In this document: positions 6,219 to 44,798 of the stretch, one piece after another | Numbering within the stretch: the first letter of the stretch is position 1 | Layout: each line of letters opens with the position of its first letter | Assembly: GCA_016184365.1 (NCBI GenBank) | Contig: JACPCW010000074.1 | Location: forward strand, 1 to 64,000 | Source of the DNA: Candidatus Rokuibacteriota bacterium | Lineage (GTDB): Bacteria; Methylomirabilota; Methylomirabilia; Rokubacteriales; CSP1-6 | Length of the DNA stretch: 64,000 nucleotides | Reading direction: 5' to 3' | Made by a program: the position numbers and the translations under genes | The notes under the pieces: generated by a model | Seen by the model: the letters and a program-made list of their open reading frames with translations, nothing else | Databases searched by the model: none | What the model was told of the DNA's origin: nothing

Positions 6219-7199
6219 ATGCGCGCCGTCATCTGCCGGGCCTGGGGACCGATCGACGATCTGCGGTTGGAGGATGTTCCGCCGCCGACGCCGAAGGCCG
6301 GGCAGGTGCTGATCGACGTCAAGGCGACCGGCGTCAATTACGCGGACTCGATCATGGTGGCCGGGCGTTACCAGACGAAGCCCGACTTCCCGTTCAGCCC
6401 CGGCCTCGAAACCGCCGGCGTCGTCGCGCGATGCGGCGACGGCGTCACGCGTTATCGGCTCGGCGACCGCGTGATGGCGATCCTGTCCTACGGCGGCTTC
6501 GCCGAGCAGGCCGTCGCCGACGAGGTCGAGACGTTCGCGATTCCGCCCGCCATGCCGTTCGACGACGCCGGCGCGTTCCCGATCGCGTACGTCTCGAGCC
6601 ACGTCGCGATCCGCTGGCAGGGGCGCCTGGAAGCGGGCGAGACGATGCTCGTCCTCGGTGCGGCCGGCGGCGTCGGGCTCACCGCCGTCGAGATCGGCAA
6701 GGCGATGGGCGCGCGTGTCATCGCGGCCGCGAGCACCGCGGAGAAGCTCGCGGTCGCGCGCGAGCACGGCGCCGACGACGTCATCGACTACTCGCGCGAG
6801 AAACTCACCGAGCGCGTCATGGAGCTCACCGGCGGCAAGGGCGCCGACGTGTGCTTCGATCCCGTCGGCGGCGACCTGTTCGACGCGGCGCTCTCGTCGC
6901 TCGGCTGGGGCGGTCGGATTCTGCTCGTCGGCTTCGTCGGTGGCATTCCGCAGATTCCGGCGAACCGGCTCCTCGTGAAGCACCGCGCGGCGCTCGGCTC
7001 GGCGCTCCGATATTTCCGGTGGCACGCGCAGGACAAGATGCGACGCACCGTGGACGAGCTGCTCGCGTGGTACGGAGCCGGCAAGCTGAAGCCGGCGGTG
7101 ACGCATCGCCTGCCGCTCGAGCAGACGGTGGACGCGATCCGCCTGCTCACCGACCGCAAGGCGTACGGCAAGGTCGTCGTCATGCCGGCGGGTACCTAA
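6219..7199 (+). CDS. NADPH:quinone oxidoreductase / zinc-type MDR family
   Basis: MRAVICRAWGPIDDLRLEDVPPPTPKAGQVLIDVKATGVNYADSIMVAGRYQ...LGAAGGVGLTAVEIGKAMGARVIAA. Confidence 0.9.
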   Translation: MRAVICRAWGPIDDLRLEDVPPPTPKAGQVLIDVKATGVNYADSIMVAGRYQTKPDFPFSPGLETAGVVARCGDGVTRYRLGDRVMAILSYGGFAEQAVADEVETFAIPPAMPFDDAGAFPIAYVSSHVAIRWQGRLEAGETMLVLGAAGGVGLTAVEIGKAMGARVIAAASTAEKLAVAREHGADDVIDYSREKLTERVMELTGGKGADVCFDPVGGDLFDAALSSLGWGGRILLVGFVGGIPQIPANRLLVKHRAALGSALRYFRWHAQDKMRRTVDELLAWYGAGKLKPAVTHRLPLEQTVDAIRLLTDRKAYGKVVVMPAGT

Positions 7200-7436
7200 T
7201 GAGTCTCGCGGAATTGCTTGACGGCCCCGGCGCCCGCCGCCGCGGCTGGCTCGCCTGTCGCCGTCGCTCGTTCCGAGGCGGGACGAGCTTCGACCCCCCA
7301 TCCCCCTGCGGGGGCCGCGCGAGCGCTGCCAATCCGCGAGCCTCGCTCGTCCTGCGTCGGAACGAGCACGGCGACGACGGCTCGCCAGCCGCGGCGGCGG
7401 GCGCCGGGGCCGTCAACCAATTCCACGAGAGTCATT
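7198..7436 (+). repeat. Long imperfect inverted-repeat element, arms about 95 bp
   Basis: AATGAGTCTCGCGGAATTGCTTGACGGCCCCGGCGCCCGCCGCCGCGGCTGG... is the near-exact reverse complement of ...CCAGCCGCGGCGGCGGGCGCCGGGGCCGTCAACCAATTCCACGAGAGTCATT. Confidence 0.93.
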
Positions 7437-7438
7437 AG

Positions 7439-8194
7439 ATGGAGCTCCGCGTCGAGCCGCACGGCGCGCACGTCGTCGTCATCACGATCGACAACCAGCC
7501 CCGGCGCAATGCGATGCCGCGCGCGATGATGGCCGAGCTCGCGGCGCTGTGGGACCGTCTCGAGCGCGACGCGTGCCGCTGCGTCGTGATCACCGGCGCC
7601 GGGGATCGCGCGTTCAGCTCGGGCGCCGACATGAGCGGCGATCTCTCCGCCGATCCCGACATGGCGCGGGTGGTGAGTCACGCGCTGCTCAAGCACCATC
7701 CGTTCTCGAAGCCGATCGTCGCGGCCGTCAACGGCGACTGCGTCGCCGGCGGCCTCGAGCTCCTGCTGTCGACGGATATCCGCGCCGCCGCGCCCCATGC
7801 GCGCCTCGGCTTGCCGGAAGTCCGCTGGTCCATCTATCCGTTCGGCGGCGCCACCGTGAAGCTCGTCCAGCAGATCGGCCACGTGCACGCGATGGAGCTG
7901 CTGCTGACCGCGAAGCTCATCGACGCGGCGGAAGCCGCGCGGATCGGCCTCGTGAACCGCGTGGTGCCGGCCGACCGGCTGATGCCGTGGGCGATCGAGA
8001 CGGCCGAGACCATCGCCGGCAACAGCCCGAGCGCCGTCCAGGCCGTGAAGCGCCAGATCAGCACGACGATCGCCGAGCACGCGCTGACGCGCGAGGCCCT
8101 GGAGCAGGAGCTCGGGGATCGCGTGCGCGCCAGCGACAACTTCCGTGAAGGCGTCCGCGCGTTCCTCGAAAAGCGCACGCCAAACTACACGTAA
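7439..8194 (+). CDS. Enoyl-CoA hydratase/isomerase family protein
   Basis: NQPRRNAMPRAMMAELAALWDRLERD...GAGDRAFSSGADMSGD...AAVNGDCVAGGLELLLSTDIRAAAPHARLGLPE. Confidence 0.92.
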   Translation: MELRVEPHGAHVVVITIDNQPRRNAMPRAMMAELAALWDRLERDACRCVVITGAGDRAFSSGADMSGDLSADPDMARVVSHALLKHHPFSKPIVAAVNGDCVAGGLELLLSTDIRAAAPHARLGLPEVRWSIYPFGGATVKLVQQIGHVHAMELLLTAKLIDAAEAARIGLVNRVVPADRLMPWAIETAETIAGNSPSAVQAVKRQISTTIAEHALTREALEQELGDRVRASDNFREGVRAFLEKRTPNYT

Positions 8195-44663: not shown

Positions 44664-44704
44664 CATGGCGAAGTGGTCCTTTACCGCCTCGCGGCGCCAC
44701 ACTC

Positions 44705-44786
44705 AACGAACCTCGCGGAACGGCGTGCGGGCGAGCCCGCTGCGGCCGCCGTGGGCGGGACCGTTGACCAATTCCGCGAGACTCAT
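44705..44786. repeat. Short relative of the 7.2-kb inverted-repeat element
   Basis: CCGTTGACCAATTCCGCGAGACTCAT matches 7198-7436 arm; outer CTCGCGGAA...TTCCGCGAG; internal GCGGGCgaGCCCGC hairpin. Confidence 0.8.
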
Positions 44787-44798
44787 GAGCGTGCGCTG

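Follow-up and report, generated by a model that had tools for sequence, protein, structure and literature searches.

Why should a long and nearly symmetric palindrome lie between the stop codon of one gene and the start codon of the next, at a junction where related genomes leave almost no space? The locus belongs to a 64,000-nucleotide stretch of a Candidatus Rokuibacteriota genome (here called the window), in which a zinc-type alcohol dehydrogenase/oxidoreductase gene (6219-7199, plus strand) is followed by an enoyl-CoA hydratase gene (7439-8194, plus strand). An earlier note on this DNA had described a 239-bp near-perfect inverted repeat between the two genes at 7198-7436. The inverted repeat is present at this junction, with 99 of 113 aligned pairs (88%) complementary across the entire element, but comparison of its copies sets slightly wider limits: the repeated unit is C-TA-[7199-7435]-TA-G (interior ATGA...TCAT), which corresponds to a 243-bp palindrome (7196-7438, CTAATGA...TCATTAG) that is 88% symmetric and includes a split CTAG target. 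The outer arms (7196-7255 and 7379-7438) are 92% complementary across 60 nt, and the 23-nt inner arms (7266-7288 and 7345-7367) are 91% complementary. A left terminal inverted repeat (ATGAGTCTCGCGGAATTGCTTGACGG) occupies 7199-7224 on the plus strand and its right counterpart (ATGACTCTCGTGGAATTGGTTGACGG, read on the minus strand) 7410-7435; the latter was placed by a repeat-end scan, its flanks and the alignment with related ISs. Between them, a conserved core (7266-7367), in which the inner arms GCTCGTTCC...GGAACGAGC flank ACCCCCCATCCCCCtgcGGGGG and CGCGAG motifs, is the part of the element most widely common to Rokubacteria.

The ends and flanks of the element reveal how it came to lie there. 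As previously noted, it begins inside the TAA stop of the oxidoreductase gene, which is composed of the left copy of a duplicated target TA (7197-7198) and A7199 and is directly followed by an in-frame TGA. It does not end 2 nt before the downstream ATG: the right copy of the TA (7436-7437) is followed by G7438, the last base of the reconstituted CTAG, and the hydratase ATG begins at 7439. In 20 of the 21 relatives examined the site is empty, the distance from oxidoreductase stop to hydratase start ranging from -1 to +4 nt, so that the hydratase gene abuts or overlaps its upstream neighbor. Closing the element in the window yields GGTAC-CTAG-ATGG, i.e., a native TAG stop directly before the ATG. 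Since the rejoined flanks form CTAG, insertion occurred at CTAG with duplication of TA, as in IS630; all clean copies in the genome are likewise flanked by C...G, and have the TA duplicated at both ends. The same oxidoreductase-hydratase junction also carries an unrelated insertion in another relative (L154, G025:C39:33500-34800, approximately 552-803 on the reverse strand), in which a GC-rich unit of approximately 80 bp is repeated in tandem about three times; two independent events have interrupted this junction.

The element is short, is bounded by terminal inverted repeats and contains neither a transposase gene nor a conserved protein. The genome (5.58 Mb in 146 contigs, approximately 90% complete) contains approximately 22 complete or partial copies, not counting short fragments, which are dispersed at unrelated sites on different contigs; those with the longest matches show 76-94% identity. 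At least three subfamilies can be distinguished among the copies, which differ in arm sequence but keep their self-complementarity, and several copies are internally deleted forms of 189, 182, and 141 bp. The terminal inverted repeat CTAATGAnnCTCGCgGAATtGGTTGACGG is common to all of them, and repeat ends of the form CTAATGANNCTCGCGGAATTG with three or fewer mismatches occur 35 times in the genome versus zero for a reversed control pattern. A second, decayed and shortened member (approximately 87 bp) lies in the window itself at 44703-44789; its ends are degraded and subfamily-B sequence is retained in its arms. An element present once, or identical arms produced by misassembly, had been proposed as grounds for dismissing a mobile element, and neither applies. 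An assembly artefact or collapsed repeat has a negligible probability: the draft is fragmented and several contigs end within copies, as is expected of a dispersed repeat, whereas the copies are mutually divergent and each has different unique flanks, the copy under study is located mid-contig, the empty sites are precise, and precise CTAG ends recur in independent assemblies of other species.

A likely partner of the element was found in five relatives, in which the same repeat, with few mismatches (CTAATGA...TCATTAG), bounds elements of 1123-1134 bp (L095-L099). These ISs contain two frames that overlap around a run rich in A (AAAAAAA/AAAAAAAA), an arrangement that suggests programmed frameshifting of the transposase. 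Among the products tested, the first frame contains HTH_33, HTH_32, and HTH_23 domains and the second frame DDE_3, and the ORFs of L096 and L098 match the NCBIfam model transpos_IS630; the ends of the palindrome are thus those of IS630-family ISs, and the alignment between palindrome and IS is consistent only across the terminal 19-29 bp. The genome that contains the window has a contig beginning within a truncated IS630 transposase (DDE_3), and the stop codon of this fragment precedes the same repeat end (G000:C33:97-382); the assembly, which is approximately 90% complete and comprises 146 contigs, yielded no intact IS of this type.

We therefore consider the palindrome to be, with a probability of about 94%, a non-autonomous and fully palindromic MITE that was moved in trans by an IS630-family transposase and inserted at the TA of CTAG. 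Its copy number, the ends common to IS630-type ISs, the empty site and the CTAG/TA signature can be read directly from the genomes, and together they point to mobilisation by this transposase family; the cut-and-paste mode would be that expected from IS630/ISY100 biochemistry. A Tc1/mariner-like (DDE) transposase of the IS630 family would recognise the repeat ATGAnnCTCGCgGAATnGGTT, excise the element and paste it into the TA of a CTAG site, with duplication of the TA. The insertion would split CTAG at TA, changing an upstream TAG stop to TAA with an in-frame TGA next to it. With regard to the earlier suggestion of a MITE/REP-like element, the MITE was borne out, of IS630 type with a CTAG target and TA duplication, and the REP-like part was not. 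REP/BIME elements mobilised by a RAYT (Y1) transposase are also palindromic, GC-rich and mostly extragenic; however, their units of 20-40 nt compare poorly with an element of approximately 240 bp whose ends match ISs with DDE_3 transposases and whose TA is duplicated at CTAG, and such an origin is very improbable here. The MITE thus appears to represent an undescribed family of IS630-type palindromic MITEs in Rokubacteria, as no paper on MITEs of these organisms was found as far as our literature searches reach, and a likely partner IS can now be supplied for such a family in an uncultured phylum.

Several known systems offer useful comparisons. Members of the IS630 family (IS630 of Shigella sonnei and ISY100, within the Tc1/mariner superfamily) are similar in TA duplication, CTAG preference, terminal repeats of approximately 20-29 bp and, in the ISs of the relatives, a DDE_3 transposase with HTH domains, whereas the element in the window is palindromic throughout and lacks a transposase gene. 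IS630 reportedly prefers the TA in 5'-CTAG-3' (Tenzen and Ohtsubo 1991, as cited in PMC2170065). TA-specific cut-and-paste insertion was observed in vitro for ISY100 (PMC2170065). The RUP element of Streptococcus pneumoniae, whose proposed mover is IS630-Spn1, is likewise non-autonomous, with ends matching an IS630-family IS, TA duplication and many copies (PMC2229807). RUP is 107 bp long, with short repeats and more than 100 copies, whereas the element described here is GC-rich and approximately 240 bp long, with arms of approximately 95 bp and approximately 22 copies; no sequence relation between the two is known. The Correia/NEMIS elements of Neisseria are also short mobile palindromes with a terminal TA and transcripts forming long hairpins (PMC2229807), but they measure approximately 107/155 bp, have 24-bp repeats and differ in sequence, host, and partner transposase. 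QMITE2 of Coxiella burnetii is a MITE located mainly at the 3' ends of genes, a bias for which no CTAG explanation was given (PMC5896051); its variable duplications of 7-11 bp indicate a different type of transposase.

The distribution of CTAG may explain why the MITE is wedged precisely between a stop and a start codon. In 464 kb of the genome, CTAG was observed 59 times against 248 expected, an approximately fourfold depletion, and, according to gene calls based on a codon-composition heuristic, 26 of the 59 sites (44%) are stop codons, 20 are intergenic, and 13 lie inside called genes. By the same calls, eight of 11 complete copies of the MITE replaced a TAG stop with TAA-TGA, three are intergenic, and none is inside a called gene. 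The position of the element between stop and start would therefore follow from the strong depletion of CTAG in genes and from the frequency of TAG stops among the sites that remain. Active targeting of stop codons beyond the CTAG preference found no support, as the excess over background is not significant (8/11 vs. 26/59, Fisher p = 0.11); CTAG preference together with loss of harmful insertions suffices, and recognition of stop codons by the element need not be assumed. The inserted end reads C-TAA-TGA, so that translation of the upstream gene still terminates in frame and its product is preserved. Insertion into a remainder of CTAG sites made up largely of stop codons and intergenic positions thus swaps TAG for TAA-TGA while the upstream protein is spared, which provides a quantitative account of elements wedged between genes. 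The stop-codon habit recurs among ISs and related MITEs of other Rokubacteria, including the ISs L095, L097, and L098 with the same ends, which are also located in TAG stops. A literature search for stop-codon-targeting ISs or MITEs retrieved nothing specific.

A different explanation for the position of the element would be function in the transcript. As a single-stranded RNA, the element has a predicted folding energy of -214.6 kcal/mol, compared to -131 +/- 5.5 kcal/mol in 200 dinucleotide shuffles (z = -15), so that the strong RNA hairpin proposed earlier would form if the element is transcribed. The arms also covary: 24 of 103 pairs are changed on both sides, a value reached in none of 500 shuffles and far above that obtained with partner columns slid, although the covarying copies are few and related and represent few independent events. 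Such stability and covariation, as well as the proposal that transcripts of comparable Neisseria MITEs are RNase III substrates (PMC2229807), would be consistent with a selected hairpin in the operon mRNA (a processing site, mRNA stabiliser or attenuator) that is repeated by chance. The mismatch pattern, however, gives no sign of selection on an RNA fold. In seven copies that lie in stop codons of genes, G-U and A-C mismatches are equally frequent on the transcribed strand (25:25), as expected if only DNA palindromy matters, which argues against RNA-level selection and for symmetry at the DNA level. Moreover, G-C to C-G swaps without a wobble intermediate account for many of the changes in the stem, some copies lie outside genes, and the ends carry transposase-type repeats, all of which make a selected RNA hairpin unlikely. 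A bidirectional transcription terminator, which had also been suggested, is less likely still. A long GC-rich hairpin at gene ends would suit it, but neither strand has a T-run, a scan of 6900-7700 for intrinsic terminators (a GC-rich stem followed by a T-run) returned zero sites, and a terminator would be unexpected inside a unit that is a tight two-gene arrangement in approximately 20 relatives. No sigma-70-like promoter was present in a scan for such sequences.

The ends of the MITE had further been reported to encode MSLAEL(L/V)DGPG... when read inward. Inward peptides do exist (MSLAELLDGPGARRRGW and MTLVELVDGPGARRRGW), and the MSLAEL(L/V) reading is only approximate on the minus strand. 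A small bidirectional protein-coding unit (MSLAELLDGPG...) could be proposed from the fact that the frame from the repeat-end start is open on both strands in all 11 complete copies; nevertheless, at this composition 30% of shuffles leave a given 79-codon frame open, the beginning of the peptide is constant only as a consequence of the constant repeat, and the interior frames are shifted between subfamilies and by copy-specific indels. On the basis of these shifts the coding reading was rejected as very improbable, and the shared peptide is a by-product of conserved repeat ends.

The symmetry of the MITE reaches far past the 19-29 bp that recognition requires. This DNA-level symmetry may have been maintained by constraints of transposition or by correction of one arm against the other. 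A tentative possibility, to which we would give rather low odds, is that direct arm-to-arm correction of the DNA (e.g., template switching within the palindrome) keeps the arms of approximately 95 bp matched, with concerted change in each subfamily far beyond the transposase-binding ends, and that this, together with the stop-codon-coincident target and the C-TAA-TGA ends, makes the element adapted for harmless landing in dense operons. The paired arm changes without a wobble excess offer suitable material for research on how symmetry persists in long palindromes. As for the host genes, the tight junction in relatives suggests translational coupling, and their separation by a very stable 239-nt hairpin should weaken the coupling of the hydratase.

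A search for the core pattern of the MITE in 84,980 species genomes matched seven contigs, all from Candidatus Rokubacteria, and related copies occur patchily in relatives of the same taxonomic family. The exact repeat-end pattern had no match in a contig collection, the element had none in phage and plasmid collections, and the window had none in Rfam. Distinct and very short elements (77-87 bp) with the same repeat ends were observed in L031, L120, L133, L190, L191, and L197, where several of them are likewise located at TAG stops; they apparently form MITE families of their own within the same IS group. In addition, a 24-bp stretch of the core (query positions 96-119) recurs at seven or more positions, with 96% identity, in a genome from a different family of the order (G036/G037, loci L033 and L038), and possibly represents a separate repeat family.
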